A stretch of 64,000 bases of DNA from positions 434,001 to 498,000 of the forward strand of contig NZ_JAAIKE010000002.1 in assembly GCF_010915705.1 (NCBI RefSeq). Direction: 5' to 3'. This document shows, piece by piece, positions 28,756 to 48,146 of this stretch. The position numbers and the translations under genes were made by a program. The notes below the pieces were generated by a model that saw only the letters and a list, made by a program, of their open reading frames with translations, made no database searches and had not been told where the DNA came from. Positions within the stretch are counted from its first letter, which is position 1, and each line of letters starts with the position of its first letter. Source of the stretch: Pseudotabrizicola algicola (lineage in GTDB: Bacteria > Pseudomonadota > Alphaproteobacteria > Rhodobacterales > Rhodobacteraceae).

Positions 28756-29085
28756 GGCAGAGATTAGACCCCTGCCACAAAGGTCTTGCAGCCGCGTCGC
28801 CGAGGGTTGCAACTTCGGGCGCCAAAGCGGCGCGACTGTGCCAATTTGCACAGTGGCAGGGCGTTTGCCGGGTTTTCAGGGCAAGAGGGTGACAAGAACG
28901 GTCGATATAATTGTTTCAGCGGGGTTTCTTGTGAAAAAATTGTCACAAGACGTCGATAGAGCGCTTGTCTGACTCGCTCGCACACCTTTAACCTTCTCCG
29001 ATAAGCCGCGAATCCATTCCGGTCGGTCGGGCAGCCGGAAATGGGTGACAAGCGGGAACGAAACGATCAACCGGGAGAGACTCTT
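28756..29085. promoter_or_regulatory. Intergenic control region between the B12 operon and the SBP operon
   Basis: This stretch has no gene. It holds two inverted repeats: ACTGTGC/GCACAGT with a 6-base spacer (28835-28854) and CTTGTGA/TCACAAG with an 8-base spacer (28928-28949). A TATAAT hexamer lies at 28906-28911 on the plus strand, but I find no matching -35. The repeats are candidate operators for the plus-strand transporter operon. Confidence 0.5.
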
Positions 29086-30189
29086 ATGATGACGAAGAAA
29101 CTGCTTGGGCTGACGACCGGCCTTGCGCTGGTGCTGAGCGCGCCGCTGGCCTCGGCGCAATCTCTGGCCGAAATCGAGGCCGCGGCCAAGGCCGAAGGCA
29201 TGCTGTCGACCATCGCCCTGCCGCATGACTGGTGCGGCTATGGCGACGTGATCGCCGGGTTCAAGGCGAAGTATCCGGAAATCACCGTGAACGAGTTGAA
29301 CCCCGACGCAGGCTCGGCTGACGAGATCGAGGCCATCAAGGCCAACAAGGACAACAAGGGCCCGCAGGCCCCCGACGTGATCGACGTCGGTCTGGCCTTT
29401 GGCCCGCAAGCCAAGGCCGAAGGTCTGACCCAGCCCTACAAGGTCGCCACCTGGGACGAAATCCCCGATGCGATCAAGGACCCCGAAGGCCATTGGTATG
29501 CCGACTACTATGGCGTGATGTCCTTCCTCGTGAACACCGACATCGTCGAGAACGTGCCGCAGGACTGGGCCGATCTGCTCAAGCCGGAATATGCGGGCAT
29601 GGTGGCACTGGCAGGCGATCCGCGTGCCTCGAACCAGGCGATTCTGGGCGTTCAGGCGGCTGGCCTTTCGACCGGGGCCGCTCCGGGCGAAGCTGCCGGC
29701 AAGGCAGGGCTGGAGTTCTTCAAGGCGCTGAACGACGCGGGCAACTTCGTGCCGGTCATCGGCAAGGCCGGCACGCTGGCCCAAGGCACCACCCCGATCG
29801 TCATCATGTGGGACTATAACGCACTGGCCGCCCGCGACACGCTGGCCGGCAACCCGCCGGTGGAAGTCGTCGTGCCGAAATCCGGCGTTCTGGCCGGGGT
29901 CTATGTGCAGGCGATCAGCGCCTATGCGCCGCAGCCCAACGCCGCCAAGCTGTGGATGGAATACCTCTATTCCGACGAAGGTCAGCTTGGCTGGCTGAAG
30001 GGCTACTGCCACCCCGCACGCTTCAACGCGATGGCCGCCGCAGGCAAACTGCCAGCCGACCTGATGGAAGCGCTGCCCCCGGCCGAAGCCTATGAGGCCG
30101 CCTACTTCCCGACGCTGGAAGAAGTTGACGCAAACAAGGCCGCTGTTGTCGGTGGCTGGGATGCTGTCGTCGGCGCAAACGTTCAGTAA
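29086..30189 (+). CDS. ABC transporter substrate-binding protein (family 1, iron/thiamine/polyamine type)
   Basis: This 367-residue protein has a signal peptide (KLLGLTTGLALVLSAPLA to ASAQ) and a class II periplasmic-binding fold like those of Fe(III), thiamine or polyamine transporters. Segments include LPHDWCGYGDVIAGFK, APDVIDVGLAFGP, YYGVMSFLVNTDIV and PIVIMWDYNALAARDT. I see no clear pair of iron-binding tyrosines, so iron is not favoured. Start 29086 follows GGGAGAG; the ATG at 29041 lacks a site and would precede the signal peptide by 15 residues. It heads a four-gene operon, with a stem-loop after it. The ligand is unknown. Confidence 0.85.
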   Translation: MMTKKLLGLTTGLALVLSAPLASAQSLAEIEAAAKAEGMLSTIALPHDWCGYGDVIAGFKAKYPEITVNELNPDAGSADEIEAIKANKDNKGPQAPDVIDVGLAFGPQAKAEGLTQPYKVATWDEIPDAIKDPEGHWYADYYGVMSFLVNTDIVENVPQDWADLLKPEYAGMVALAGDPRASNQAILGVQAAGLSTGAAPGEAAGKAGLEFFKALNDAGNFVPVIGKAGTLAQGTTPIVIMWDYNALAARDTLAGNPPVEVVVPKSGVLAGVYVQAISAYAPQPNAAKLWMEYLYSDEGQLGWLKGYCHPARFNAMAAAGKLPADLMEALPPAEAYEAAYFPTLEEVDANKAAVVGGWDAVVGANVQ

Positions 30190-30200
30190 CATCTGAACCC

Positions 30201-30227
30201 GCCTGCCCGGTTTCGCACCGGGCAGGC
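30201..30227 (+). terminator. Stem-loop after the SBP gene
   Basis: An 11-bp perfect stem (30201-30211 with 30217-30227) closes a TTCGC loop, 11 bases after the binding-protein stop and about 50 bases before the first permease. It probably reduces readthrough or stabilises the upstream mRNA. Confidence 0.75.
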
Positions 30228-30279
30228 ACCCGTTTCGGAAAAAGGGGCCGCCAAGTGCCTCGGACCACAGGGGAATGTG

Positions 30280-31152
30280 ATGCCAAAGCAAACAGGGGGC
30301 CAGCGCCTTCGCCTGCCGCTTGAATGGTTGGGCATTCTGCCCTTTGTCGTTTTTGCAGTGCTGTTCCTGATCCTGCCCACCATGAAGATCGTGGTCGGTG
30401 CGTTCCAGACCCCCGATGGCGGCTTCACCCTGCAAAACCTGCTGGACCTGAACACTCCTTCCATCCGCTCGGCCTATTGGACCTCGATCAAGCTGTCCTT
30501 CGTGACCGCGCTTCTGGGCTGTGCCATCGGCTTTGCCATGGCGGCGGCGGTGGTGTTCGGCGGCATGCCCAAGGGCGTGCGCAACCCGCTTGTCACCTTC
30601 TCGGGCGTTGCCTCCAACTTCGCGGGCGTGCCGCTGGCTTTTGCCTTCATCGCAACCCTCGGCCCGGTGGGGCTGGTCACGGTCTGGCTGCGGACCGAAT
30701 TCGGCATCAACCTGCGGGCGATGGGGTTCAACCTTTTGTCCTTCTGGGGCCTCGTCATCACCTATCTGTTCTTCCAGATCCCGCTGATGATCCTCATCAT
30801 CATTCCGGCGCTCGACGGGCTGAAGCGCGAATGGCGCGAGGCGGCGGCGGTGCTGGGGGCGACGGGCGCGCAATACTGGCGCATGGTGGCGCTGCCAATC
30901 CTGTTCCCGTCGCTGCTCGGCACCTTCGCGTTGCTGTTTGCCAATGCCTTCGGCGCGGTCGCCACCGCCTTTGCACTGACGGGGCCGCAGCTTAACATCG
31001 TGCCGATCAAGCTGTTCGCGCAAATCCGGGGCGATGTGCTGGGCAACCCGAACCTTGGCTATGCGCTGGCCTTTGGCATGATCGTCATCACCGCGCTGGC
31101 CAACTTCCTGTATATCTGGCTGCGCGTGCGCTCTGAAAGGTGGCTGAAATGA
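30280..31152 (+). CDS. ABC transporter permease 1 (PotB/CysT-like)
   Basis: This 290-residue permease has about six membrane segments and the binding-protein-dependent transport EAA loop (EWREAAAVLGATGAQYWRMV) near residues 185-205. It resembles PotB/ThiP-type permeases. The codon before the ATG at 30280 is a GTG, also in frame; GGGGAA is placed better for the ATG. Its stop overlaps the next permease start as ATGA. The substrate is that of the upstream binding protein and is unknown. Confidence 0.87.
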   Translation: MPKQTGGQRLRLPLEWLGILPFVVFAVLFLILPTMKIVVGAFQTPDGGFTLQNLLDLNTPSIRSAYWTSIKLSFVTALLGCAIGFAMAAAVVFGGMPKGVRNPLVTFSGVASNFAGVPLAFAFIATLGPVGLVTVWLRTEFGINLRAMGFNLLSFWGLVITYLFFQIPLMILIIIPALDGLKREWREAAAVLGATGAQYWRMVALPILFPSLLGTFALLFANAFGAVATAFALTGPQLNIVPIKLFAQIRGDVLGNPNLGYALAFGMIVITALANFLYIWLRVRSERWLK

Positions 31153-31931
31153 CCCGCTTTTTCGCATGGGGCACCTTTCTTCTGGGATGCCTGTTCTTTG
31201 CCCTTCCCCTGATCGGGATGACAGAGTTCAGCCTGAAGATGCGGCGCGGCGAATATTCCTTCGACGCCTATCGCCGCGTGTTCGAGGACCAGCGCTTCTG
31301 GGATACGTTCAGCTATTCGCTGATCCTTGCCGCCGCGACCATCGTCGTTGGCGTGTTGCTTGTGGTGCCGACCGCCTATTGGGTGCGGCTGAAGCTGCCG
31401 CAGGCGCGGCCGGTGATCGAATTCATCACCCTTCTGCCGCTGGTGATTCCGGCCATCGTGATCGTGTTCGGCTATATCCGGCTTTACAACACCTCGAGTT
31501 TCCTGCCGCTCACCGGCTCGGCCCTTGGCACCGACATCCTGCTGACGATGGGCTATACCACCCTTGCCCTGCCCTACATGTATCGGTCTGTCGATACGGG
31601 TCTGCGCACGATTGACGTGGCCACGCTGACCGAGGCCGCGCAAAGCCTTGGCGCAGGCTGGATCACCATATTGTCGCGGATCATCCTGCCCAATGTGATG
31701 GTCGCCGTGCTGTCGGGCGCGTTTCTGACGCTTGCCATCGTCCTTGGCGAATTCACCATGGCGGCGCTGCTCAACCGCCCTGCCTTCGGCCCCTTCATGC
31801 AGCTTCTGGGTGCCAACCGCGCCTATGAACCGCCCGCACTGGCCGTGATCGCCTTTGCCATCACCTGGGGTTGCATGGGCCTGATGCAGCTTGTCACACG
31901 CTTTTCCAAACACGAAAGGGCGAAAGCCTGA
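31149..31931 (+). CDS. ABC transporter permease 2 (PotC-like)
   Basis: This 260-residue permease has about six membrane segments and an EAA-type loop (LTEAAQSLGAGWITILSRII). It is the partner of the preceding permease. The start at 31149 gives an ATGA overlap with it and has AAGG 8 bases before; the GTG at 31140 is an in-frame alternative. It ends in a TGATG junction with the ATPase gene. Confidence 0.87.
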   Translation: MTRFFAWGTFLLGCLFFALPLIGMTEFSLKMRRGEYSFDAYRRVFEDQRFWDTFSYSLILAAATIVVGVLLVVPTAYWVRLKLPQARPVIEFITLLPLVIPAIVIVFGYIRLYNTSSFLPLTGSALGTDILLTMGYTTLALPYMYRSVDTGLRTIDVATLTEAAQSLGAGWITILSRIILPNVMVAVLSGAFLTLAIVLGEFTMAALLNRPAFGPFMQLLGANRAYEPPALAVIAFAITWGCMGLMQLVTRFSKHERAKA

Positions 31932-32992
31932 TGTCCTTCCTGACCCTCACCCATCTTGAGAAGAGCTTTGGCGCGAACCGCGTGGTCAAGGATTTCAACC
32001 TGTCGGTGGAAAAGGGCGAGTTCATCTCGCTTCTCGGCCCGTCAGGCTGCGGCAAGACCACGGTTTTGCGCATGGTCGCGGGGTTTGAAACACCCACCGC
32101 AGGCGGCATCACGATTGACGGCCGGGATGTAACCTCTCTCAAGGCCAATTCCCGCAATATCGGCATGATGTTTCAGGCCTATGCGCTGTTTCCCAACATG
32201 ACCGTTGCCGACAACGTGGCCTTCGGGCTGCGGGTGAAAGGCGTGCCGCGTGCCGAGCGCGATGCCCGCGTGGCCGAGATGCTGGCGCTGATCGGCCTGT
32301 CGGAAATGGGCGGGCGCTTTCCCTTCCAGCTTTCGGGCGGGCAACAGCAACGCGTGGCGCTGGCGCGCGCGCTGGCGCCGCGCCCCTCGGTGCTGCTGCT
32401 TGATGAACCGCTCTCGGCGCTGGATGCCAAGGTGCGGGTGTCCTTGCGCAACCAGATCCGGCAGATCCAGCAGGATCTCGGGATCACCACCATCTTCGTG
32501 ACCCACGATCAGGAAGAGGCGATGAGCATTTCCGACCGCATCGTGGTGATGAATGGCGGTGTCGCCGATCAAGTCGGCGCGCCGTTTGAAATCTACAACC
32601 GCCCCCGCACCAAGTTTGTCGCCAACTTCGTCGGCACGCTCAACACCTTCGAGGTGCGGGTGACAGACCCCGCGACGGGCCGCGTCGCGCTGGCGGGCCA
32701 AGACCTGACCCTGCCGGATGCTCCGCTTTCGGCGCGGACGGGCGAGACGCTGACAGTCGCCCTGCGCCCCGAGGCGCTGCGCCTCGGCCGCCTCGCCGAT
32801 GCCGAGGCTCTGCTGCCCGCAAAGGTCACCGATGTGCATTTCATGGGCTCGGTCATCCGCCTGCGCGCCGATGTGGCCGGAACGGATGTGTCGCTTGACA
32901 CCTTCAACCGCCCCGATACGCCGCCGCCGACCGTCGGCAGCATGATCGAGGTCAGCCTGTCGGGCCGCGATTTCATTCAGTTGCGAGCGTAA
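31931..32992 (+). CDS. ABC transporter ATP-binding protein (PotA/CysA-like, with TOBE domain)
   Basis: This 353-residue ATPase has Walker A GPSGCGKTT, signature LSGGQQQRVALARAL, Walker B VLLLDEPLSALD and the switch His in FVTHDQEEAM. A C-terminal TOBE regulatory domain covers roughly residues 270-350. This architecture belongs to polyamine, iron, thiamine and phosphonate importers. The start overlaps the preceding stop by one base. It is the last gene of the operon and is followed by a bidirectional hairpin. Confidence 0.9.
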   Translation: MSFLTLTHLEKSFGANRVVKDFNLSVEKGEFISLLGPSGCGKTTVLRMVAGFETPTAGGITIDGRDVTSLKANSRNIGMMFQAYALFPNMTVADNVAFGLRVKGVPRAERDARVAEMLALIGLSEMGGRFPFQLSGGQQQRVALARALAPRPSVLLLDEPLSALDAKVRVSLRNQIRQIQQDLGITTIFVTHDQEEAMSISDRIVVMNGGVADQVGAPFEIYNRPRTKFVANFVGTLNTFEVRVTDPATGRVALAGQDLTLPDAPLSARTGETLTVALRPEALRLGRLADAEALLPAKVTDVHFMGSVIRLRADVAGTDVSLDTFNRPDTPPPTVGSMIEVSLSGRDFIQLRA

Positions 32993-33041: not shown

Positions 33042-34202
33042 TTACATGCAGGCGTCAAACAGCGCGCGGGTATTCTCGCGCGTCATCTCAACAGGGTTGC
33101 CCCCGCAAGACGGATCTTCCAGCGCCATGTCGGTCAGACGCTCCAGATCCTCTGCCTTGACGCCCATCGCGGTCAGGTTTGCCGGAATGGCCAGCGCCGC
33201 ACGCAGTTCCATGATCTTGGCGCGGAAGCCGTCAAAGCCGCCCGCAATGCCCAGATAGGCAGCGGCGGCGTTGATACGGTCTTCGATGGCGTGACGGTTG
33301 AAGTCGAGCACCATCGGCATGACGACGGCATTAGTGGTGCCGTGGTGGGTGCCATAGACCGCGCCCACAGGGTGCGACAGCGAGTGGATCGCGCCAAGGC
33401 CCTTCTGGAACGCAACCGCCCCCATTGCCGCCGCAGACATCATATGCCCGCGCGCCATCAGATTGCCGGGCTCCTGATAGACCACGGGCAGGTTCTCGAA
33501 CACCAGCCGCATGCCTTCCAGCGCGATGCCCTGACTCATCGGGTGATAGAACGGGCTGCAATAGGCCTCGAGGCAATGGGCCAGCGCATCCATGCCGGTG
33601 CCCGCGGTGATGAACTTCGGCATCCCCACCGTCAGCGCCGGATCGCAGAGCGTGACCGCAGGCATCAGTTTGGGGTGGAAGATGATCTTTTTCTTATGGG
33701 TTTCGGAATTGGTCAGAACGCCCGCGCGCCCCACTTCCGACCCCGTTCCGGCGGTCGTCGGCACCGCAAGGATCGGCGCGATCTTGTCGGCATCGGCGCG
33801 GGTATACCAGTCGTCGATGTCCTCCAGATCCCAGACGCTCAGATCGGCGCGCTGATGCGCCATCAGGGCGATCATCTTGCCAAGGTCCAGCGCCGAGCCG
33901 CCGCCAAAGCAGATCACGCCATCATGGCCGCCGGCCAGATAGACCTTGATCCCGTCGGCCATGTTCTTCTCGTTCGGGTTCGGGTCCACATCGGAGAACA
34001 CCGCGCGGCCAAGGCCGGCAGCTTCCAGCACCGACAGGGCTTCCGCCGTGATCGGCAGGCTGGCCAGCGCCTTGTCGGTCACCAGCAGCGGCTTTTTCAG
34101 GCCGATGCTTTTGGCATGATCGGCCAGTTCGGAAATCCGGCCGACACCGAATTTGATTGCGGTCGGATAAGACCAGTTGCGGGAAGGCACGCCATGCGAC
34201 AT
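33042..34202 (-). CDS. Iron-containing alcohol dehydrogenase
   Basis: This 386-residue group III alcohol dehydrogenase has the NAD-binding GGGSALDLGKMIAL near residue 100 and the metal-site segments AGTGMDALAHCLEAY (Asp and His ligands) and LGAIHSLSHPVGAVYGTHHG (two further His ligands). It would interconvert an alcohol and aldehyde. It follows the aldehyde dehydrogenase by 4 bp and ends the gamma-glutamylation-type operon. With the glutamine-synthetase-like enzyme in the same operon, the substrate may be a gamma-glutamyl amino alcohol, which is inference. Confidence 0.9.
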   Translation of the reverse strand: MSHGVPSRNWSYPTAIKFGVGRISELADHAKSIGLKKPLLVTDKALASLPITAEALSVLEAAGLGRAVFSDVDPNPNEKNMADGIKVYLAGGHDGVICFGGGSALDLGKMIALMAHQRADLSVWDLEDIDDWYTRADADKIAPILAVPTTAGTGSEVGRAGVLTNSETHKKKIIFHPKLMPAVTLCDPALTVGMPKFITAGTGMDALAHCLEAYCSPFYHPMSQGIALEGMRLVFENLPVVYQEPGNLMARGHMMSAAAMGAVAFQKGLGAIHSLSHPVGAVYGTHHGTTNAVVMPMVLDFNRHAIEDRINAAAAYLGIAGGFDGFRAKIMELRAALAIPANLTAMGVKAEDLERLTDMALEDPSCGGNPVEMTRENTRALFDACM

Positions 34203-34206
34203 GGGG

Positions 34207-35586
34207 TCAGACTTTCTTGAGGTGATAGGATTTCGGGCGGGTCACCGACAGGAACCCGAGATAGGACAGAGAATTGCCGCGCCCCGTGTTCTTGCAGCCG
34301 GTCCAGCACAGCGCGGGGTCGAGATAATCGGCGCGGTTCATGAAAATCGTGCCGGTCTCGATCTGCGCGCCGATGGCGGCGGCGGTGTCATAATCTTCGG
34401 TCCAGATGCTGGCGGTCAGGCCGTATTGGCTGTCGTTCATCAGCGCGATGGCCTCGGCGTCGTCCTTCACCTTCATGATGCCGACCACAGGGCCAAAGGA
34501 TTCCTCGGTCATCACCCGCATCGTGTGATCGACATTCACCAGCACCTGCGGCGCGAGATAAGCCCCGCCATCGTCGGCAGGGAAGTTTGCGGGGTCGATC
34601 AGCGGCTTTGCCCCCGCCGCAATCGCCTCGGCCACCTGATCGCGCACCACCTTTGCAAAGCGGGCATGCGCCATCGGCCCCATCGTGCTGTCCGCGTCGA
34701 ACGGGTTGCCCAGTTTCAGCGCGTTGGTCCATGCCACCGCCTTTTCGACAAATGCATCATAGAGCGATTCGTGCACATAGATCCGCTCGATCCCGCAGCA
34801 GCACTGGCCCGCGTTGAACAGCGCGCCATCCATCAGGGTATCCACCGCCGCATCCAGATTGGCATCGGCCCGCACATAGCCGGGGTCCTTGCCGCCCAGT
34901 TCCAGCCCGAGCGGCGTGAAGGTGCCAGCCGCCGCCCGTTCGATCGCCTGTCCGCCGCCGACCGATCCGGTAAAGTTGATGAAGTCGAAGGACCGCGCCT
35001 TGATCAGCGCCTCCGTGGTGGCGTGATCCAGCACGATGTTCTGGAACACATCTTCCGGCACGCCCGCCGCGTGGAAGGCCTCGGCCAGACGCTCGCCCAC
35101 CAGAAGGGTCTGGCTTGCATGTTTCAGGATCACCGTGTTGCCCGCGATCAGCGCAGGGACCAGCGTGTTGATCGTGGTCAGGTAAGGGTAGTTCCACGGC
35201 GCGATGATGAAGACCACGCCCAACGCCTCGCGCGCGAGATAGCGGCGGAAGGCGTCACTGTCTTCCACCACCTTGCGAGCCAGCGTCTCGGCGGCGATCT
35301 CGGACATGTATTCGGTGCGGGCGTTCACACCGCCAAACTCGCCGCCAAAGCGAGTGGGGCGGCCCATCTGCCATGCCAACTCCTCGACGATCACATCCTT
35401 CATCTCGTTCAGCCGCGCGACACCGGCCTTGACCAGGGCAATCCGCTCGTCCAGCGGACGCGCCGCCCAAGGCTTTTGCGCCGCGCGCGCCGCCGCAACA
35501 GCGGCTTCCGCGGCCCCCTGCGCCAGCGGCATACGCTCGGCATAGACCCGGCCATCGACCGGAGAAATCAGTTGAATCGGCTTCAT
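34207..35586 (-). CDS. NAD(P)-dependent aldehyde dehydrogenase
   Basis: This 459-residue aldehyde dehydrogenase has IIAPWNYPYLTTINTLVPAL for cofactor entry, FINFTGSVGGGQAIE, the general base in LELGGKDPGYV, and the catalytic Cys within NAGQCCCGIERIYV; three Cys in a row make the exact nucleophile less obvious, but the first or middle one aligns. It is about 20 residues shorter than usual at the N-terminus. Start 35586 follows GAGGACGG. It sits between a PuuA-like synthetase and an iron alcohol dehydrogenase, so it may oxidise a gamma-glutamyl-amino aldehyde. Confidence 0.88.
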   Translation of the reverse strand: MKPIQLISPVDGRVYAERMPLAQGAAEAAVAAARAAQKPWAARPLDERIALVKAGVARLNEMKDVIVEELAWQMGRPTRFGGEFGGVNARTEYMSEIAAETLARKVVEDSDAFRRYLAREALGVVFIIAPWNYPYLTTINTLVPALIAGNTVILKHASQTLLVGERLAEAFHAAGVPEDVFQNIVLDHATTEALIKARSFDFINFTGSVGGGQAIERAAAGTFTPLGLELGGKDPGYVRADANLDAAVDTLMDGALFNAGQCCCGIERIYVHESLYDAFVEKAVAWTNALKLGNPFDADSTMGPMAHARFAKVVRDQVAEAIAAGAKPLIDPANFPADDGGAYLAPQVLVNVDHTMRVMTEESFGPVVGIMKVKDDAEAIALMNDSQYGLTASIWTEDYDTAAAIGAQIETGTIFMNRADYLDPALCWTGCKNTGRGNSLSYLGFLSVTRPKSYHLKKV

Positions 35587-35601
35587 GTTCCGTCCTCGCA
35601 G

Positions 35602-35691
35602 GGCGGGGCTCACCCCGCCATTCCCTTGCCTCAAAGGCGGGGGTGTCCCCGCCCTACCCCGTTTCGTGTAGGGTGCGTGCTTGCACGCACC
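35602..35691. repeat. Cluster of three short palindromes between the synthetase and aldehyde dehydrogenase genes
   Basis: Three near-perfect palindromes follow each other: 35602-35619 and 35636-35653 (both GGCGGGG/CCCCGCC types) and 35672-35691 (GGTGCGTGC/GCACGCACC). Their regular form and intergenic place suggest REP-like dispersed elements, and the last is a type I recall from rhodobacterial spacers. They may also act as mRNA processing or attenuating hairpins. Confidence 0.6.
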
Positions 35692-35697
35692 GCCTGG

Positions 35698-37065
35698 TCA
35701 GGCCCGCTCGAGCAGGCGCTGCACCTCGAAATCCGTCACCACACGGTCGCTCTCGGCGATCTCCCAGCGGGCCGCATGGGTGTAATGATCGACCACGTCA
35801 TCGCCAAAGGCCGCGCGCAACATGGCCGAGCCGTTCAACAGGTCCGCCGCCTCGCGCAGGTTATGCGGGATCTCGCGGATGCCCTTGGCCGAATACATGT
35901 CGCCCTTCATCTCGGGCTCCAGTTCCATCTTGCCCTCGATGCCCGCCAGACCCGCAGCCAGCAGCGCGGCGCAGGCCAGATAGGGGTTCACGTCACTGCC
36001 CGGAATGCGGCATTCGACGCGCACCGCCTTGGTATGCGCACCACACACGCGGAATCCCGCCGTGCGGTTGTCCGCGCTCCACACCGCTTTGGTGGGGGCG
36101 AACATGCCGATGGTGAAGCGCTTGTAGCTGTTGACGTAAGGCGCGAGGAAGGCGGTGATTTCCTGCGCATGCGCCAGTTGGCCGGCAAGGAAATGCTTCA
36201 TCACCTCTGACATGCCGTTGGCGTCGTCATGGTCGTAGAACGCCGCCTTGCCATCCTTGGTCCACAGGCTCTGGTGCACATGCGCCGAAGACCCGGCCTT
36301 GCGGTGGTCATACTTCGCCATGAAGGTCACCGACTTGCCCTTGGCATGGGCAATGTCCTTGACCGCCTGTTTCACCACGATGTGGTTGTCGGCGGTGTCC
36401 AGCGCGTCGGAATAGCGGTAGTTCACCTCGTGCTGGCCGGCATCGGCCTCGCCCTTGGTGTTTTCCACCGGAATGCCCGCCGCATAGAGCCCGTTGCGCA
36501 CGTCGCGCATCAGCCCTTCTTCCTTGGTGGTCTGGAAGATGTGGTAATCCTCGTTATAGCCCGAAATCGGCTTGAGCCGCGACAACCCGCCATCGCGCAG
36601 GTCCTCATAGGCGTTCTCGAAGATGTAGAACTCCAGTTCCGTCGCCATCATCGGCTCGAAGCCCATGGCACGGGCGCGGGCGACCTGACGTTTCAGAATG
36701 GCGCGCGGGCTGACACTGATGTCTTCCTTGCCCGCGTGATCCATCAGATCGGCCAGCACCAGCACCGTGCCGGGCAGCCAGGGCAGAACCCGCATGGTGG
36801 CCAGATCGGGCTTCATCATGTAGTCGCCATAGCCTTGTTCCCAGCCGGCGGATTTGTAGCCCGGCACGGTCGTCATCTCCATGTCGACCGCCAGCAGGTA
36901 GTTGCAGCAATGGGTTTCCTTATGCCCGCCGTTCAGGAAGAACGCCGCGTGAAAGCGCTTGCCCATCAGGCGGCCCTGCATGTCGACCGCAGCCACCAGC
37001 ACCGTGTCGATCGTGCCCGCGTCGACCAATTCGCGCAAAGCGTCCAGCGTCAGATTTCCCGGCAT
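35698..37065 (-). CDS. Glutamine synthetase family protein, gamma-glutamylpolyamine/amine synthetase-like (PuuA-like)
   Basis: This 455-residue protein has the glutamine synthetase catalytic core: the ATELEFYIF metal-site glutamates, AGQHEVNYRY, SSAHVHQSLW with the HxH pair, and the NRTAGFRVCGAHTKAVRVEC ATP/glutamate region. The N-terminal part is of the PuuA/GlnT class, not that of GlnA. Such enzymes attach glutamate to an amine (putrescine, ethanolamine, isopropylamine) at the cost of ATP. Neighbouring aldehyde and alcohol dehydrogenases and an amidohydrolase fit a gamma-glutamylated pathway. The start at 37065 follows GGGGAAG. The amine is unknown. Confidence 0.87.
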   Translation of the reverse strand: MPGNLTLDALRELVDAGTIDTVLVAAVDMQGRLMGKRFHAAFFLNGGHKETHCCNYLLAVDMEMTTVPGYKSAGWEQGYGDYMMKPDLATMRVLPWLPGTVLVLADLMDHAGKEDISVSPRAILKRQVARARAMGFEPMMATELEFYIFENAYEDLRDGGLSRLKPISGYNEDYHIFQTTKEEGLMRDVRNGLYAAGIPVENTKGEADAGQHEVNYRYSDALDTADNHIVVKQAVKDIAHAKGKSVTFMAKYDHRKAGSSAHVHQSLWTKDGKAAFYDHDDANGMSEVMKHFLAGQLAHAQEITAFLAPYVNSYKRFTIGMFAPTKAVWSADNRTAGFRVCGAHTKAVRVECRIPGSDVNPYLACAALLAAGLAGIEGKMELEPEMKGDMYSAKGIREIPHNLREAADLLNGSAMLRAAFGDDVVDHYTHAARWEIAESDRVVTDFEVQRLLERA

Positions 37066-37110
37066 GCGTCTTCCCCGTCTGTCCGTTTTTGATCATATTC
37101 TTGCAAATGA

Positions 37111-37133
37111 GGGGGCGCAATGGATGCGCCCCC
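37111..37133 (-). terminator. Stem-loop after dctP
   Basis: An 8-bp perfect stem GGGGGCGC/GCGCCCCC (37111-37118 with 37126-37133) with a 7-base loop lies 21 bases after the TRAP binding-protein stop and 45 bases before the synthetase start. It probably partly insulates the enzyme genes from the transporter genes. Confidence 0.65.
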
Positions 37134-37154
37134 GAAGCTGTCGCAGTGCAGGGC

Positions 37155-38207
37155 TCAGCCGTAGCGATACGGACGCCCGGCCTTGTTCTGCACCTCGTTG
37201 TATTGCTTGAAGATCTCCACGACCTTGGCCTTCACTTCGGATTCGGCGGCGATCTCGTCCCAGAACTTGACGGCGGCCTCCTCGACAGTGGCCCATTCCT
37301 CGTCGGGAATCGTGGTCAGCTGCAGCTTGCCACCGTTCAGGCGCAGATCGGCCTCGCCGGCCCAATACCAGTGCTGGCGGTAGTAATGCGACTGCTCGAA
37401 ACAGGTGGCCAGCATTTCCTGCAGGTGCGGCGGCAGGGCGTTCCACTTGTCCATGTTGGCAAAGAAATGCCCGATCCACGCGCCCGAGATGTTGTTGGTC
37501 AGGAAGTAGTTGGTCACATTCGACCAGCCCACGGTGTAAACCTCGGTGATGCCCGACCATGCGATGCCATCCAACTCGCCGGTCTGCACCGCAACCTCGA
37601 TGTCTTCCCACGGCAGGGTGACCGGCACCACGCCGAACTGCGTCAGGAAGCGGCCAGCGGTCGGGAAGGTGAAGATGCGCTTGCCCTGCAGATCGGCAAG
37701 GCTGTTGATCGGGTCCTTGGTGGCAAAGTGGCACGGGTCCCATGCGCCCGCCGAGATGTGCTTGACGCCCACCTTGGCATATTCCTCTTCCCAGATCTCC
37801 TTCAGCCCGTATTTGTTGAACAGGGCCGGCACATCGAGGCTGTAGCGCAGCGCCAGCGGGAAATAGCCGCCGAACACGGTCACCTCGGTGGGAGATGCCA
37901 TCGAGTCGTCATCCGACTGCACGCAATCGATGGTGCCGCGCTGCATGGCCTGAAACAGCTCTCCGGTCGGGACAAGCTGATCGGCGTAGAACAGTTCAAT
38001 CTCCATCTGGCCCTGCGCCATCCGGTTGAAGGCATCGACGGCAGGTTTGACGACCTCCTCCCCCAGGGCCGCGCCGGCATAGGTCTGCATACGCCACTTG
38101 ATCACATCCTGTGCGCGGGTGACGGCGGGTGCTGCCAGCGTGGCGGCTCCGGCGCCCACGGCGAGCGAAGCGCCTTTTGTCAGGAAGGAACGTCTTGATG
38201 TCGTCAT
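37155..38207 (-). CDS. TRAP transporter substrate-binding protein (DctP)
   Basis: This 350-residue periplasmic protein begins TSRRSFLTKGASLAV, a twin-arginine-type signal followed by a hydrophobic stretch to AAPAVTRAQ. The DctP fold is seen in VIKWRMQTYAG, FNRMAQGQMEIELFYADQLV, LQGKRIFTFPTAGRFLTQFG (with the conserved Arg that binds carboxylate ligands) and ELDGIAWSG. TRAP ligands are usually carboxylates, so an acidic amine-derived or keto-acid ligand is possible. It follows dctM by 61 bp, an SBP-last order. Start 38207 has GAGG upstream. Confidence 0.9.
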   Translation of the reverse strand: MTTSRRSFLTKGASLAVGAGAATLAAPAVTRAQDVIKWRMQTYAGAALGEEVVKPAVDAFNRMAQGQMEIELFYADQLVPTGELFQAMQRGTIDCVQSDDDSMASPTEVTVFGGYFPLALRYSLDVPALFNKYGLKEIWEEEYAKVGVKHISAGAWDPCHFATKDPINSLADLQGKRIFTFPTAGRFLTQFGVVPVTLPWEDIEVAVQTGELDGIAWSGITEVYTVGWSNVTNYFLTNNISGAWIGHFFANMDKWNALPPHLQEMLATCFEQSHYYRQHWYWAGEADLRLNGGKLQLTTIPDEEWATVEEAAVKFWDEIAAESEVKAKVVEIFKQYNEVQNKAGRPYRYG

Positions 38208-38268
38208 CTGTGATACCTCTTGTTGGTGGGTGGGCGGGCGCGGTTATGTCCGCGCCTCGATTCAGAAC

Positions 38269-39612
38269 TCAGTTTCGATAGACCAGATGCGGCAGCCACA
38301 GGGCGATCTGCGGAAAGGCCATGATCAGCCCCAGCGTGACCACCATCACCCCGACAAAGGGCGTGACCGAGCGGTAGATATCGCCCATGCTAATCTCCTT
38401 GGGAGCAAAGGCGCGCATCAAAAACAGGTTATAGCCGAAGGGCGGCGTCAGATAGGCGATCTGGCAGGTAATGGTGTAAAGCACCCCGTACCAGACCAGC
38501 ACATCCAGACGCGGCATCCCGAAATCGAGCATGGCGACCAATGGCACATAGAGCGGTGCCACGATCACCAGCATGGCGGTATCGTCCAGGAACATGCCCA
38601 TCAGCAGGAAGGACAGCTGCATCAGGATCAGGATGGTCCACGGCCCCATGTGCAGGCGGTCGACGAACAGCGACTCCACCGCCTTGACCGCGCCCAGGCC
38701 GTCAAACACCGCGCCAAAGGACAGCGCGGCAAGGATCACCCACATGAACATGCAGGTGATGCCGAGCGTGTTGCGCGTCGCGGTTTCAAACACGGCTCGC
38801 GTGAAGGTGCCCTTGATGACCGCGCCCGTGACCGTGGCCGCCACGCCGATCACACTGCTTTCCACCAGACTGGTCCAGCCATAGATGAAGGGCAGCATCA
38901 TCGCGCCGAAGATGACGAAGGGCAAAAGCCCCGCGCGCAGACTGCGCAGCTTTTCGGCGCGGGTGATCTGCGCCATCTCTTCCTCTGTCAGCGCGGGGGC
39001 CAGCCACGGCTGCCAGCGGCTGCGCAGCAGGATGTAGACGATGAACATCGTCGCCATCAGCAGCCCCGGCACCAGCCCGGCCAGCCAAAGCTCCGACACG
39101 GGGGCGCGGGCGATCATCGCATACAGAACCAGCACCACAGAAGGCGGAATCAGGATGCCCAGCGACGATCCGGCCTGAATGACGCCGGTCACCATGCGCT
39201 TGTCATAGCCGCGCCGCAAAAGCTCCGGCAGCGCGATGGTGGACCCGATCGCCATGCCCGCCACCGACAGACCGTTCATCGCCGAAATCAGCACCATCAG
39301 CAGGATGGTCCCCACCGCCAGACCGCCCCGCACGCGGCCGAACCACAGGTGGAACATGCGATAGAGGTCATCGGCAAGGCGGCTTTCGCTCATCACATAG
39401 CCCATGAAGACGAACATCGGCAGCGACAGCAGCGGATACCAGCGCATCAGCTTCATGGTGGCGGAAAAGCCCATCTGCTCGCCGCCCTGCCCCCAAAGGG
39501 CAAGCGCGGCAACCACGGCAACAAAGCCGATGATCCCGAACACCCGCTGCCCGGTCATCATCATGAGCAGCATGGTCGAGAACATGAGCGCGGCGATCAT
39601 CTCGTAGGGCAT
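38269..39612 (-). CDS. TRAP transporter large permease (DctM)
   Basis: This 447-residue inner-membrane protein has about twelve hydrophobic segments and the family stretches LSLPMFVFMGYVMS, ISAMNGLSVAGMAIGSTIA, GSSLGILIPPSVVLVLYA, and LTPPFGYNLFLM. It is the ion-motive transporting subunit. Its start overlaps the dctQ stop by one base (TGATG), so the two are coupled. Confidence 0.92.
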   Translation of the reverse strand: MPYEMIAALMFSTMLLMMMTGQRVFGIIGFVAVVAALALWGQGGEQMGFSATMKLMRWYPLLSLPMFVFMGYVMSESRLADDLYRMFHLWFGRVRGGLAVGTILLMVLISAMNGLSVAGMAIGSTIALPELLRRGYDKRMVTGVIQAGSSLGILIPPSVVLVLYAMIARAPVSELWLAGLVPGLLMATMFIVYILLRSRWQPWLAPALTEEEMAQITRAEKLRSLRAGLLPFVIFGAMMLPFIYGWTSLVESSVIGVAATVTGAVIKGTFTRAVFETATRNTLGITCMFMWVILAALSFGAVFDGLGAVKAVESLFVDRLHMGPWTILILMQLSFLLMGMFLDDTAMLVIVAPLYVPLVAMLDFGMPRLDVLVWYGVLYTITCQIAYLTPPFGYNLFLMRAFAPKEISMGDIYRSVTPFVGVMVVTLGLIMAFPQIALWLPHLVYRN

Positions 39613-40118
39613 CAGATGGTTTCCCCGCGGATGGTGGCCACGTCACGGGTCAGCGCGGCCAGCGCCTGCAGCAGCATGAGGAAAAAGCCCACGCACAGGA
39701 TCACCTTGATCGGCCACAGATAGGGCCGCCACGCGGTCGGGCTGCGTTCGTTGTATTGCAGCGAATACATCGTGCTGTCGATCGCACCCCACAGCATGAC
39801 GCCCAGATAGAAGATCAGTGCCAGCACGGTGATCGCATCCCACCAGGCCTGCCGCACCGGACTTTGCTTGGCGTAGAACAGGTCCATCCGCACATGGCTG
39901 CCCATCTGCATCGCATAGGGTCCGCCCAGCACGAAATAGGCCACCATCACGAATTGCGCCATCTCCAGCGTCCAGAGCGAGGGGGTGAACGCCGCCTTGC
40001 TGATGGTGGACCACATCAGGATGCCCATCAGCACGAACAGCAGATACATCGCCATCCGCCCCACGCCGTAATTGAACCTGTCGACCAGCCGCACAAAGCC
40101 CTTGGCAATCCTCGGCAT
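39612..40118 (-). CDS. TRAP transporter small permease (DctQ)
   Basis: This 168-residue protein has four hydrophobic segments and the small-subunit segment SHVRMDLFY, typical of DctQ. It assists DctM and DctP. GGAGG lies 8 bases before the ATG at 40118, overlapping the end of the amidohydrolase gene, whose stop is 3 bases away. Confidence 0.88.
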   Translation of the reverse strand: MPRIAKGFVRLVDRFNYGVGRMAMYLLFVLMGILMWSTISKAAFTPSLWTLEMAQFVMVAYFVLGGPYAMQMGSHVRMDLFYAKQSPVRQAWWDAITVLALIFYLGVMLWGAIDSTMYSLQYNERSPTAWRPYLWPIKVILCVGFFLMLLQALAALTRDVATIRGETI

Positions 40119-40121
40119 CGC

Positions 40122-40889
40122 TCAGACCTCCGCCACGGCGGCAAGCGCGGATTGCAGCACCGGCGCAAGTCTGTCCGCCATCGCCTCGGCCATCTCGGAC
40201 GTTGCAATCAGGTCATTGCGGATTTCCAGCATCGCATTCGCCAGACCATAGGGCGTGGCCTGAAGGCGCAGCGTATGCGTGACACCATCGGCGGCGGAAT
40301 AGGGTTCGTTCAAGGCGCAGGCAAGGTCCGTGCCACGCTGCGCTGCCTCGACAATGGCGCGCGCCAGACGGTCATCGGCATCATGGATCACGCCGAATTC
40401 CACGCTGCGCGGGCGGCCATGATAGACCGGCGTGAAAGAATGGATCGTCACCAGCACCGTGACCCGCCCAAGCGCCAGACGCCGCGCAATCTCGGCGTGC
40501 AGGGCGTTGTGAAACGGCAGATACAGCGCCTCGGTGCGGTGCAGCCTGTCCTCTGCGCTCAGCCCCTTGTTGCCGGGAATGTCGTGCACCTCAGACCGCT
40601 CGGCCATCGCATCGGCGCGGTCCGGCCCGCGGTTCAGATCATAGATCAGGCGGCTTGCGGGGGCATGAACCAAGGCCGCATCCAGACGCCGCGCCAAAGC
40701 GCGCGACAGGTCCAGCGCGCCCGGGTCCCATGCCACATGAGCGGCCTGCTGCGCCTCGGTCAGGCCAAGGCTGCCCCACGGCGCGGGAAAGGCGTTGCTC
40801 GCGTGTTCGCAGACCAGCAGAATCGCCCCGGCGGCGTCGCGGTTTTCGACATGGGCCGCGAAATCAGACTGGATGGAATGCAGGCTCAT
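40122..40889 (-). CDS. N-formylglutamate amidohydrolase family protein
   Basis: This 255-residue protein belongs to the FGase family: LLVCEHASNAFP (metal/catalytic region), DPGALDLSRALARRL, ASRLIYDLNRGPDR and VTIHSFTPVYHGRPR. Classical members split N-formylglutamate in histidine degradation, but no hut genes are here. It is the first gene of an operon with a PuuA-like synthetase, so it may hydrolyse a gamma-glutamyl amide or another glutamate amide. Start 40889 is chosen because upstream extension would run into the divergent rpiR gene; its ribosome site is weak. Confidence 0.8.
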   Translation of the reverse strand: MSLHSIQSDFAAHVENRDAAGAILLVCEHASNAFPAPWGSLGLTEAQQAAHVAWDPGALDLSRALARRLDAALVHAPASRLIYDLNRGPDRADAMAERSEVHDIPGNKGLSAEDRLHRTEALYLPFHNALHAEIARRLALGRVTVLVTIHSFTPVYHGRPRSVEFGVIHDADDRLARAIVEAAQRGTDLACALNEPYSAADGVTHTLRLQATPYGLANAMLEIRNDLIATSEMAEAMADRLAPVLQSALAAVAEV

Positions 40890-41060
40890 CAGTGACTCGG
40901 CCCCCTTGTCGCCGCCCCTAGGCTTCCTGATGCACCCTGCCTCTGTCAAGAATTTTTCTTCTGCACAATTTCTGTTACAATAATTTCTGAAATCTAGCAG
41001 AGTGGTCGCCACATCCCGCAGCACACGGCATGATGCGGGCAGAAAACGGACAGGAAAGGC
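40890..41060. promoter_or_regulatory. Divergent promoter region of the amidohydrolase-TRAP operon and RpiR regulator
   Basis: This AT-rich 171-bp gap contains the palindrome ATTTCTGAAAT (40983-40993) and a direct repeat AATTTCTG at 40967-40974 and 40982-40989. GAAA/TTTC palindromes suit RpiR-family operators. No promoter hexamers were assigned. Confidence 0.5.
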
Positions 41061-41936
41061 ATGGAAATGGACCTTCCCCTTGGCGTCGAAGACAAGATGC
41101 GCGCAGCCCTGCCCGATCTGACGCGGGCCGAGCGGCAGGTCGCCACCCATATCCTGCGCCATTATCCGGTGGCGGCCTTGGGCTCTATCACCGCGCTGGC
41201 GCAGGCCGCCGAAGTCTCTACCCCCACCGTCGTGCGCCTGTGCCAGAAACTGGGCTATCGCGGCTATCCCGATTATCAGGCCGCGCTGCGCGGCGAGGTG
41301 GGGGCGATGTTGGAATCGCCGCTCGTCAAACATGACCGCTGGGCCGGGGGCGTGCCCGACACCCATATCCTCAACCGCTTTGCCGATGCGGTGGTCGCCA
41401 ATCTTCAGGCCACGCTCAGCCAGATCGACCACGCGGTGTTCGATGCGGTGGTCGCCCTGCTGGCCGACCCGTCACGCCGCATCTTTGCGATGGGCGGGCG
41501 CATCACCCATGCCCATGCCGATTATCTCGTGTCGCTGATGAAGGTGGTCCGCCCCGAGGTCACGCTGCTTTCCGACATGTCGAACACATGGCCGCCCGCG
41601 CTTCTGGATATGAAACCGGGCGATGTGCTGGTCGCCTTCGACATCCGCCGCTATGAAAACTCGGTGCTGCAACTGGTGGAACTGGCGGTGGAACAGGGGG
41701 CCGAGGTTGTTGTCATCACCGACCGTTGGGTCAGCCCCGCCGCCGCCCATGCCCGCCACACGCTGACCTGCCATATCGAGGCACCGTCCGCATGGGATTC
41801 GACCGTCTCGATCCTCGTGCTGGTCGAAACGCTGCTCGCCTCCGTGCAAAGCAGGACATGGGGCGAAACAGAAGGGCGGATGAAGCGGCTGGAAACCCTT
41901 TATGACCGTTCCCGCTTCTTCCGCCGGTATCGCTGA
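41061..41936 (+). CDS. MurR/RpiR-family transcriptional regulator
   Basis: This 291-residue regulator has an N-terminal HTH (LTRAERQVATHIL, ALAQAAEVSTPTVVRLCQKL) and a C-terminal SIS domain (roughly residues 115-250; RIFAMGGRITHAHADYLVSL, GDVLVAFDIRRYENSVL). SIS domains usually sense phosphosugars, though in amine operons the ligand may differ. It is divergent from the operon at 33-41 kb and likely controls it. AGGAAAGG precedes the ATG at 41061. Confidence 0.88.
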   Translation: MEMDLPLGVEDKMRAALPDLTRAERQVATHILRHYPVAALGSITALAQAAEVSTPTVVRLCQKLGYRGYPDYQAALRGEVGAMLESPLVKHDRWAGGVPDTHILNRFADAVVANLQATLSQIDHAVFDAVVALLADPSRRIFAMGGRITHAHADYLVSLMKVVRPEVTLLSDMSNTWPPALLDMKPGDVLVAFDIRRYENSVLQLVELAVEQGAEVVVITDRWVSPAAAHARHTLTCHIEAPSAWDSTVSILVLVETLLASVQSRTWGETEGRMKRLETLYDRSRFFRRYR

Positions 41937-41991: not shown

Positions 41992-42519
41992 TCAGTGGCC
42001 CATCGCGGAATGGTCGGCGTGATCGTCAGCGGCATCCGAGGGATCGACGCTGAATTCTATTTCGACCCGGCCCGCACGTTCAAAGATCAGCACCCCCGGC
42101 ACCATCTGGCCTTCGACCAGCGGTTCGGTCAGGCCCATCAACATGATGTGCAGACCGCCGCGTTCCAGCAGGACCGTCTCTCCGGCGGGGATGTCGATGG
42201 CGTCCAGATGCATCATCCGCGCCACGCCATCCGCGCCATGCTCGGTGGTGTGCAGTTCGGCATGTTTGACCGACGGCACTTCGATGCCGATCAGCCGGTC
42301 GGCGGTGTCGCCTTCGTTTGAAATGCCCATGAAGCCGCCCGCCGATTTGGCCGAGGCAATCGGGGCAAGGATATGCGGGTGGATGATCTCCAGATCACCG
42401 ACGGTCACGCCGTGGGCATTGGCACCGGGTGCCAGCATCAGGGCGGCGCAGATCGCCAGCATCGGGCCTTGGACAGCCCGCACAGACAGAAGGGTTCGGA
42501 AGGAAGAAAACAGGGTCAT
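41992..42519 (-). CDS. PCu(A)C-type periplasmic copper chaperone
   Basis: This 175-residue protein has a signal peptide ending near GANAHG and a PCu(A)C domain. The copper motif is visible as KHAELHTTEH, then MMHLDAI, and GGLHIMLMGL, giving the H(M)X10MX21HXM-like pattern. A His-rich C-terminus (DDHADHSAMGH) may add metal binding. It would deliver copper to cytochrome oxidase CuA. It follows the DUF2946-like gene by 72 bp in the same direction. Confidence 0.9.
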   Translation of the reverse strand: MTLFSSFRTLLSVRAVQGPMLAICAALMLAPGANAHGVTVGDLEIIHPHILAPIASAKSAGGFMGISNEGDTADRLIGIEVPSVKHAELHTTEHGADGVARMMHLDAIDIPAGETVLLERGGLHIMLMGLTEPLVEGQMVPGVLIFERAGRVEIEFSVDPSDAADDHADHSAMGH

Positions 42520-43021: not shown

Positions 43022-44377
43022 TCACGGCCCCGCCGTCACCCGCGCCCGCCAAAGCCGCGCATAGGCTTCCTGCCGCGGGTCGGGCGCGCGGTCTGCGCTG
43101 GCCTCTGCCACGGTCTCGGCCCGTTGCAGCAGCATCGCCGCGCCCACCGCCGTGCCGGTGCGCGCCGTCGAAATCAGCGCAGGCCGTCCGGTGGCTGCGC
43201 GCAACATGCCGCAAAACCACGGGTTCGCGGCAAAAGGCCCCTCGACAATGCTTGGTCCCTCGGCACCGATGGCCTCCAGACATTCCGCCGTCATCAGCGC
43301 AAGATAATAGCCCAAGGCGACCTCTGTCTGCGCATCAGTCTGCGGCGCACTGGTCCAGCGATGCGCACGGCCCTGAAACGGGCCGCTGTCGCTGACCACC
43401 GAAGGCAACAGCATAAGCCCCGAGGCTAGCACCTGATCTGAGTCGCCCTCCTTGGCGCTGGCGGGACGACCGGCCTGTATCAGATCATATTCCCGCCCGC
43501 CCATGAACCGCGCCGAAGGCACGGCGGACCCGAACGCATTGACATTCACCAGCGTGTCGCGCGACGGGTCAAGCGCCACGGGCCGCCCGCCCACCGCCAT
43601 CGACACCACCCATGTTCCGGTCGAGATCACGGCAAACGGCGCCTGCCGCCCCAGAAGATGCGGCAACAACGATGCATTGCTGTCGTGCAGACCCACCAGA
43701 ACCGGCACCGGGCCAAGACCAAGCTCGGCCTGCAACTCTGGGCGCAGGGTGCCAAGCCTGTCACCGGGCGCCCGTGGCGGGGCCATTTTCCCATCCAGCC
43801 CAAGCGCCTTGGGCAGGCTGGAAAAATCGCCGCGCGCCGGAGTCCACAAGTCGGTATGGCAGCCCAGCGAGCAGATGTCGCTTGCCACCTGACCGGTCAG
43901 CAGATGGCCCCAGAACTGCGGCCACATCACCACATGGCTGATACGGTCGCGCAATCCGGCATCCTCGCGCAGTTGCCAGAACAGTTGCGCGCCAAGGTTC
44001 AGGCCAAGCGGCAGCGCCGGACTTCCGGTTTCGGCAAAGGGCGGGCGGATCAGATCATACTGCGCCCGGCACGTCTCCGGCCCCGGATGTTCGTAATCCA
44101 GCACCGGCGCGGCAAGGTTTCCCCCTGCATCCAGCAGCGCCGCACAGGCCCCGTGCGTGGTGACGCAGATCGCATCGACCCGATGGCTCGCCGCCAGCGC
44201 GCGCAAACCGTCGCGCAGGAAGGCCCATTGCGCGCCGGTGTCGAAATGCGGCCACGGCGGGCCGGGCAGCACCCGGTTTGCCATCGTGCGCACCGCCACC
44301 TCGGTCAGGCTGTCCAGATCGACCAAGGCCAGTTTCACATTGGTCTTGCCGATGTCGATGATCGCCGCGTGCTTCAT
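43022..44377 (-). CDS. rhaK: L-rhamnulose kinase RhaK (FGGY family)
   Basis: This 451-residue FGGY carbohydrate kinase has the phosphate-binding [16 protein letters not shown] near the start, the central [16 protein letters not shown], and [15 protein letters not shown], the adenosine/phosphate segment. It phosphorylates L-rhamnulose. In Rhizobium leguminosarum the rhaRSTPQUK operon ends with this kinase, and its product is also needed for rhamnose transport; the same order holds here. Start 44377 gives an ATGA overlap with rhaU. Confidence 0.87.
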
Positions 44378-44688
44378 GGCATGTGGAACACGGTCACCAA
44401 GGGCTCTGCCACCGGCGCGTTGTCCGGGTGCGTCTCCATCAGATCGGCCATATGCGCCCACCAGCGTTGCATCACCGGATGGGCCGGCAGATCGTCCATC
44501 CGGTGGTCATCACGCCGCCACAGCACGCCAAACAGGATGCGGCTTTCGCGGTCCAGATGGATGGAATAATCCTGCACGCCCGCCTCTTTCAGCAAGGCCA
44601 CCAGTTCCGGCCAGATCTCGTCATGGCGGCGGGTGTATTCCGCCTCTGCCCCCGGATGCAGCCGCATCTTGAACGCATATTTCTGCAT
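44374..44688 (-). CDS. rhaU: L-rhamnose mutarotase RhaU (RhaM)
   Basis: This 104-residue protein matches L-rhamnose mutarotase: [40 protein letters not shown], and the [16 protein letters not shown] end. It interconverts alpha and beta anomers so that the isomerase gets its preferred form. Two adjacent ATGs (44691, 44688) follow a GGAGGAG; the second overlaps the rhaQ stop. Small size and place between rhaQ and rhaK agree with the rhizobial operon. Confidence 0.92.
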
Positions 44689-45665
44689 CATCTCCTCCGC
44701 AGCAGACGGGGCAGCGCGATCACACCGATCAGGAGCACCCCAAGGAAAATGCTCATCACGATTCCCGGCACGTTCAGCAGGCCGAAGCCGAAGGTCACCA
44801 TCCCCATGATCAGCGCCGCCAGCACCACGCCCGGAATGCTGCCCGACCCGCCAAGGATGCTGACCCCGCCCAGCACCACCATCGTGACCACCTCCAACTC
44901 CCATCCCGTCGCAATCGACGGTCGGGTAGAGCCGAGGCGCGAGGTCAGGCAGACGGCGGCAATCCCGCTCATCACGCCCGTCAGGAGGAACAGGATGAAC
45001 CGCACCCGCGCGACGCGGATGCCGGAAAACTGCGCGGCGGTGGCGTTGTTGCCAATGGCAAAGACCGCGCGGCCAAAACTGGTGCGGTGCAGCAGCAGGT
45101 AATAGACCACCGCCATCACCGCGAACAGCGCAAGCTCAAAGCTGATAACCCACCAGACATAGCCCTGCCCGAAGAACTTGAAGCTGGCCGGATAGCCGGT
45201 GAAGGCCTTGTCGCCCAGAACGATATAGGCGATGCCGCGGAACAGGCTCATGGTGCCGATGGTCACCACGATGGATGGCAGGCCCATCCCCGCCACCAGC
45301 GCCCCGTTGATCACCCCGCAGAGCAGCCCCGTCCCGATCCCCACCAGCACCAGCACGGGCGTATCCGCCCCCGCCGCCATCGCCACCCCCATCGCCGTAG
45401 AGGCGAGCGCGATGATGGAGGCGACCGACAGGTCGATATCGCCCGCAATGATCAGCATCGCCATCGCAAAGGCGATCAGCGCCTTTTCGGTGAAGTTGAA
45501 GGTGGCGTCCGACAGGTTCCATGCGTTCAGGAAATAGGGCGAGGCAAAGCTGTTGGTGACGAAGACGGCAATCGCCACGGCCACCAGAATTGCCTCCCAA
45601 CTGCGCAGCGCACGCGCCGCGGGGGATTGCAGCCGGTCGGGCAGGATACGGGGAGAGCGGGTCAT
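44688..45665 (-). CDS. rhaQ: L-rhamnose ABC transporter permease RhaQ
   Basis: This 325-residue CUT2 permease has about nine to ten hydrophobic segments, [14 protein letters not shown], and a C-terminal [16 protein letters not shown] loop. One of two permeases of the rhamnose transporter; paired permeases are typical of the rhizobial type. It overlaps rhaP by four bases and rhaU by one. Confidence 0.88.
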
Positions 45666-48123: not shown

Positions 48124-48146
48124 CACGGATTCCTTTGAAGGCAAAG

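Follow-up and report, generated by a model that had tools for sequence, protein, structure and literature searches.

Which substrate is consumed by an operon that sets a glutamine synthetase (GS)-like enzyme, an aldehyde dehydrogenase (ALDH), an iron alcohol dehydrogenase (Fe-ADH), and an N-formylglutamate amidohydrolase (FGase)-family protein beside a tripartite ATP-independent periplasmic (TRAP) importer? The question is raised by positions 33042-41936 of a 64,000-nucleotide stretch of the Pseudotabrizicola algicola genome (assembly GCF_010915705.1, contig NZ_JAAIKE010000002.1, positions 434,001 to 498,000), here called the window, to which coordinates refer unless another locus is named. 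We propose that this is an Eto operon, by which ethanolamine is catabolized to glycine and glutamate by gamma-glutamylation rather than by the eut route, and we put the probability of this reading at roughly 0.93. Judged by gene order, orthology, and binding-site residues, its Eto membership is firm, and the substrate, originally predicted as an amino alcohol, can be narrowed to ethanolamine.

In the proposed route, EtoX (DctP) would bind ethanolamine, a lipid-derived amine, and EtoVW (DctQM) would import it. The GS-like enzyme would then combine it with glutamate and ATP to form gamma-glutamylethanolamide, which the Fe-ADH would convert to the aldehyde and the ALDH onward to gamma-glutamylglycine; from this, the FGase-family enzyme would release glycine and glutamate, the latter to be recycled. 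RpiR would control the operon, probably via an intergenic direct repeat. The original prediction of amino alcohol glutamylation, oxidation from alcohol to aldehyde to acid, FGase-family hydrolysis, TRAP import, and RpiR control was right in outline. Going by the available parts of the published accounts, ethanolamine binding by the solute-binding protein, a rise of five operon proteins on phosphorylethanolamine, and the glutamylation of ethanolamine by GlnA4, a GS-like enzyme of Streptomyces, have been established on homologues; what we infer comprises both oxidation steps, the hydrolysis, the RpiR site, and every function assigned in this strain.

Gene content and order

An ORF (open reading frame) check placed all eight genes at or very near the positions originally predicted, and every one of the eight proteins exceeded its family cut-off in a Pfam profile search, bearing out a minus-strand operon with a divergent RpiR gene. 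The RpiR/MurR-family regulator (41061-41936, plus strand; HTH_6 60.9 bits, SIS 62.6 bits) is divergent also in the relatives that retain it. The seven structural genes, all on the minus strand, encode the FGase-family amidohydrolase, a predicted gamma-glutamylglycine hydrolase (GGAH; 40122-40889; PF05013, 138 bits); the TRAP small permease DctQ (EtoV; 39612-40118; PF04290, 78.9 bits); the TRAP large permease DctM (EtoW; 38269-39612; PF06808, 208 bits); the TRAP solute-binding protein DctP (EtoX; 37155-38207; DctP family, 82 bits); the GS-like protein, a predicted ethanolamine gamma-glutamylase (ETAGA; 35698-37065; Gln-synt_C, 356 bits); the ALDH, a predicted gamma-glutamyl-aldehyde dehydrogenase (GAADDH; 34207-35586; PF00171 [Aldedh], 399 bits); and the Fe-ADH, a predicted gamma-glutamylethanolamide dehydrogenase (GETADH; 33042-34202; PF00465, 151 bits, and PF25137 [ADH_Fe_C], 144 bits). 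Gaps between these seven range from a 1-base overlap (DctQ/DctM) up to 111 bases (GS/ALDH). For the FGase gene, the ATG at 40889 is a likelier start than the long frame's GTG farther upstream; for the ALDH gene, the ATG at 35586 is the most likely start.

This order, from RpiR through FGase, DctQ, DctM, DctP, GS-like, and ALDH to Fe-ADH, is that of the Eto operon: the available text of PMC10132767 gives all eight, identically arranged, for Phaeobacter sp. MED193. It further reports that EtoX binds ethanolamine with a dissociation constant of 7.9 uM and that levels of GGAH, EtoX, ETAGA, GAADDH, and GETADH went up on phosphorylethanolamine.

Two intergenic hairpins were observed on the minus strand, one between dctP and the GS gene (37066-37154; z -1.9) and one between the GS and ALDH genes (35587-35697; z -3.6). 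The second contains the palindrome GTGCGTGCAAGCACGCAC (35673-35690), which a repeat check found at a single place within the window; mRNA processing or a repeat element is a possible explanation for both hairpins.

Conservation of the neighborhood

Gene neighborhoods were compared in two samples. In the family survey, which used a cut-off of E <= 1e-140, 179 of the 295 genomes had a match to the GS, and 80 places among the matches listed made up the family sample (60 in about rank order, 20 from further down); the named-genome sample was the best 80 of 583 GS matches. The two share eleven loci, so that 149 of the 160 are distinct. Genes were counted by tblastn because ORF picking left 7 loci (L189, L043, L142, L147, L178, L040, and L056) without a GS frame. 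All eight genes were found in 39/80 family loci, with order and strands identical in 39/39 and GS identities of 59 to 94%, which excludes chance co-location. GS, ALDH, and Fe-ADH occurred together in 76 of the 80, and the neighborhood comparison, set out originally as a possible refutation, left the prediction standing. DctP was present in 53 family loci and FGase in 50. The named-genome sample held the eight genes in 26/80 loci (order kept in 26/26) and the GS-ALDH-Fe-ADH trio in 67/80; among the pooled distinct loci, the figures were 61/149 and 133/149. The full set was also in order on plasmid 1 of Paracoccus denitrificans PD1222 (synthetase orthologue PDEN_RS22650, dctP orthologue PDEN_RS22645) and on a Ruegeria plasmid, and Pseudotabrizicola and Cypionkella records matched the window GS at 94% identity. 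This non-eut ethanolamine route is common among the Rhodobacteraceae sampled.

Six loci (L071, L075 [the same as L177], L077, L080, L086, and L168) kept the TRAP genes (DctP 56 to 62% identical) and gave no match to FGase or RpiR. Near each of them lies a gene from one and the same cluster, the L080 member of which is glycerol-3-phosphate-oxidase-like.

Binding protein, transporter slot, and substrate

The window DctP shares 249/319 residues (78%) with PDB 4uab and is orthologous to Csal_0678 and EtoX. As described in the available parts of the sources, 4uab is the structure of Csal_0678 from Chromohalobacter salexigens with ethanolamine bound and held on a Glu, and this protein is without the carboxylate-binding Arg usual in TRAP binding proteins. 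That Arg is likewise lost from the window DctP, where its position is Phe179; of 53 aligned DctP sequences (the window plus 52 complete ones from the 80 family loci), 48 carry Phe in this column and the other 5 carry Tyr. The acidic platform residue would correspond to Glu222, which is kept in 53/53. By eye, the N-terminus of DctP carries a twin arginine. A predicted structure of EtoX was of poor quality (mean predicted local distance difference test [pLDDT] score, 56.4) and was left out of consideration.

In the transporter slot, six distinct loci have the TRAP triplet replaced by an APC permease between FGase and GS. Three of these permeases (L044 4776-6278, on the same contig as L131; L196 8390-9922; L197 8412-9926) best match the NCBIfam ethanolamine permease; the others (L183 8357-9904, L189 8302-9903, and L190 8111-9841) are of another family. 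Going by these matches, three of the six distinct swaps favor ethanolamine as the substrate and the other three say nothing of it. Ethanolamine is further supported by the use of the same four Pfam families as in Chromohalobacter, by the lack of a EutB match, and by a separate GlnA-like gene in the host genome (4.49 Mb, 29 contigs). The four families (PF00120, PF00465, PF00171, and PF05013) are listed for Chromohalobacter ethanolamine use in the available part of a 2022 review (PMC9397018). The canonical eut pathway is not indicated, because the EutB ammonia-lyase subunit had 0 matches in the host genome (of 14 control genomes, E. coli alone matched).

Might the operon instead serve another small amino alcohol (2-amino-1-propanol [alaninol], 1-amino-2-propanol, or serinol) or isopropylamine, with ethanolamine as a side substrate? 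The pathway logic suits any primary amino alcohol, a flavin adenine dinucleotide (FAD)-dependent D-amino-acid-dehydrogenase-like gene that follows Fe-ADH in 49/135 distinct loci could act on D-alanine from alaninol, and columns 180, 181, and 220 set apart a DctP subgroup (57 to 62% identical). Several points count against the Eto reading as a whole. Those three columns are altered in six sequences (L071, L075, L077, L080, L086, and L115), of which L115 is a full eight-gene locus; since they adjoin binding residues and vary, ligands may vary as well. PDB 4xf5 is the same protein as 4uab with 2-amino-1-propanol. The pairing of the published Glu220 of Csal_0678 with Glu222 of the window DctP is positional only; two Glu lie between 205 and 230, one of them at chain position 217. 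TRAP genes were absent in 27/80 family loci and FGase in 30/80, contig ends explaining some of these absences. The ethanolamine-permease matches of L044, L196, and L197 (347 to 365 bits) do not reach the 381.75 bits that NCBIfam sets as its cut-off, and in half of the six distinct swaps the permease belongs to a different APC family. Finally, the activities of the window proteins are all predicted.

On the other side, secondary alcohols and isopropylamine would not yield an aldehyde directly, which speaks against such substrates, and half of the six distinct swaps bring in a transporter nearest the ethanolamine permease. Ethanolamine is the ligand for which EtoX binding was measured, and protein levels increase on phosphorylethanolamine (PMC10132767, available text). 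We consider a different principal substrate quite unlikely and keep to ethanolamine.

Synthetase, hydrolase, and remaining alternatives

The ethanolamine reading narrows the substrate for a cluster whose automatic annotation still says "glutamine synthetase family protein" and "N-formylglutamate amidohydrolase." These names would favor an ordinary glutamine synthetase and the HutG of histidine catabolism as chance neighbors, yet the enzymes themselves argue otherwise. The synthetase scored 263.4 bits against a GlnA cut-off of 429.15 and also failed the cut-off of the type III glutamine synthetase model; the FGase scored 27.2 bits against the hutG_amidohyd cut-off of 278.75. Compared with the host genome's GlnA-like paralogue (L007), which lies outside the operon, the synthetase is without the DGSS motif and has GMFAP instead of GFEAP (Phe for Glu); DGSS and GFEAP are ammonium-site motifs of GlnA. 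Phe322 of the synthetase is invariant in 16/16 aligned orthologues, and the best PDB chain was 5dm3 (604 bits), the product of the gene adjoining Csal_0678. The FGase is 51% identical to 2odf (Atu2144) over 243 columns, with a fold (AlphaFold2 model, pLDDT 87.9) also nearest 2odf, and 16 to 17% identical to 2q7s, a named N-formylglutamate amidohydrolase. The host genome encodes four FGase-family proteins, i.e., three besides that of the operon. Given also that the operon genes travel together, the GlnA/HutG alternative is strongly disfavored by sequence and hardly credible. A Puu-type putrescine pathway, although the synthetase belongs to the PuuA superfamily, is equally improbable: the protein scored 214.5 bits against a gamma-glutamylputrescine synthetase cut-off of 650, the Fe-ADH implies an alcohol substrate, and an amine oxidase is not among the eight genes by Pfam.

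The FGase-family protein had been proposed from the start as the final hydrolase of the operon, and this finds parallels in the available parts of PMC6529630 and PMC9397018, both of which give like steps with an enzyme of the formylglutamate-amidohydrolase family.

Regulator and candidate operator

How RpiR might act on the ethanolamine operon is suggested by a candidate operator/promoter before the FGase gene (40942-40987, minus strand), in which the TTG starts of two boxes are 31 bp apart. Box 1, GAAATTATTGTAACAGA (40971-40987, minus strand), forms one part of it, and box 2, GAAAAATTCTTGACAGA (40942-40958, minus strand), covers a -35-like TTGACA. The search set comprised the divergent RpiR-FGase regions from 95 sequences including the window, 89 of them unique. 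With spacings of 18 to 31 allowed, a TTGTAACAGA-like box (<=2 mismatches) stood 30 to 31 bp before an exact TTGACA in 43/89 regions, 42 of these having a spacing of 31; across 30 shuffled sets, the mean was 0.07 and the maximum 1. When the range was widened to 10 to 60, 31 was still by far the commonest spacing. At spacings of 30 to 32, the pair was found in 45/89 regions (shuffles: mean 0.03, maximum 1), namely, in 40/44 where RpiR identity was at least 65%, in 4/5 at 55 to 65%, and in 1/40 below 55%. Neither the PD1222 region (RpiR 60%) nor the Ruegeria region (RpiR 45%) showed it. The pair also precedes 5/8 RpiR genes without an FGase neighbor, and the exact operator pattern occurs once in the host genome. 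The direct repeat remains a predicted RpiR operator, because the regulator and the site are both held in common by close relatives and because TTGACA alone could be a mere -35 box. The words "operator" and "FAD" are absent from the text of PMC10132767, which was the only paper relevant by title among the matches listed for ethanolamine with RpiR or EtoX.

Linked accessory genes

The FAD-dependent gene mentioned above (DadA/ThiO-like; for example, L059 13037-14296) directly follows Fe-ADH in 27/77 family and 27/68 named-genome loci with Fe-ADH. It is absent from the window, and its nearest relatives in the host genome are 36% and 28% identical. Our guess is that the enzyme would oxidize glycine or D-alanine, both NCBIfam models having scored below cut-off.

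Convergent with the operon lies an ATP-binding cassette (ABC) importer of putative function, consisting of an SBP_bac_6 binding protein (29041-30189), two permeases, and an ATPase (29041-32992 in all, plus strand). Its 2-aminoethylphosphonate-type matches are below cut-off, as is that of its PhnT2-like ATPase. Of the 295 family genomes, 47 encode the binding protein, and in 39 of these 47 the GS is present as well (hypergeometric P 0.0004, uncorrected for relatedness). By printed coordinates, the importer is <=12 kb from the GS in at least 7 of these 39 (G000, G135, G225, G275, G279, G284, and G292); in most genomes having both, the two are not near each other. In L240 and L246 it stands beside DctM and DctP relatives, and it adjoins RpiR in 7/7 loci with Rhizobiaceae names. 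Because placements differ where the two are linked, a functional link to the operon is suggested. Its neighbors in 20 regions point to no clear substrate; among them, clusters of four members were formed by a membrane dipeptidase, by an AlkZ-like protein, and by a class-III aminotransferase.

These features could be drawn together into a wider ethanolamine island in which RpiR reads the 31-bp-spaced repeat, the ABC importer brings in a bulkier ethanolamine source, e.g., phosphoethanolamine or glycerophosphoethanolamine, and the FAD-dependent glycine/D-amino-acid oxidoreductase performs a further step in other genera; we hold this extension to be doubtful. In the available parts of the published Eto accounts, no mention was found of the operator candidate, the TRAP-for-APC swaps, the linked FAD oxidoreductase, or the linked ABC importer, and we regard these accessory features as modest leads.

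Other features of the window

A PCu(A)C copper chaperone is encoded just past RpiR (41992-42519, minus strand), and an iron-siderophore-type uptake set, with a TonB receptor, Peripla_BP_2, FecCD, and an ATPase, lies at 23934-28434 (minus strand). Positions 43022-61335 hold sugar/inositol-type genes: an FGGY kinase, a sugar-type ABC importer, a DeoR regulator, a fused class II aldolase/short-chain dehydrogenase, a class II fructose-bisphosphate-type aldolase, KduI/IolB, a thiamine pyrophosphate enzyme, and Gfo/Idh/MocA.

Comparison with known systems

In the PuuA and IpuC pathways, as in the route proposed here, glutamylation precedes oxidation and hydrolysis comes last. They act on other substrates, and the window synthetase falls short of the PuuA-type model cut-off. 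Nearer is the GlnA4 cluster of Streptomyces coelicolor, which, according to the available text of PMC6529630, shares a GS-like enzyme that gamma-glutamylates ethanolamine, two dehydrogenases, and a proposed gamma-glutamylglycine hydrolase of the formylglutamate-amidohydrolase family. Unlike the window, the figure legend of that paper has no TRAP genes, naming a glutamine amidotransferase along with a short-chain dehydrogenase and a putative ethanolamine transporter; the named regulator is EpuRI. Chromohalobacter salexigens has the ethanolamine-bound Csal_0678 and the same four enzyme families but is a gammaproteobacterium, likened to the window by families and DctP, not by gene order. For Chromohalobacter, PMC6529630 refers to Gerlt 2016 and to an abstract from 2015; PMC10132767 credits Vetting et al. 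2015 with the demonstration of the pathway in Chromohalobacter and in Agrobacterium.

The claim of the original prediction that no described pathway has exactly this set fell on these accounts: Csal_0678 is a published ethanolamine-binding TRAP protein, and PMC10132767, in its available text, describes the set gene for gene. That system, the Eto operon of Phaeobacter sp. MED193, is the closest counterpart: likened by gene order rather than by sequence, it differs in genus and shares all eight genes, their order, the RpiR gene, and an ethanolamine TRAP binding protein, with no visible difference between the gene sets. The operon of the window is a system already described in another marine bacterium, ordinary apart from its accessory features.

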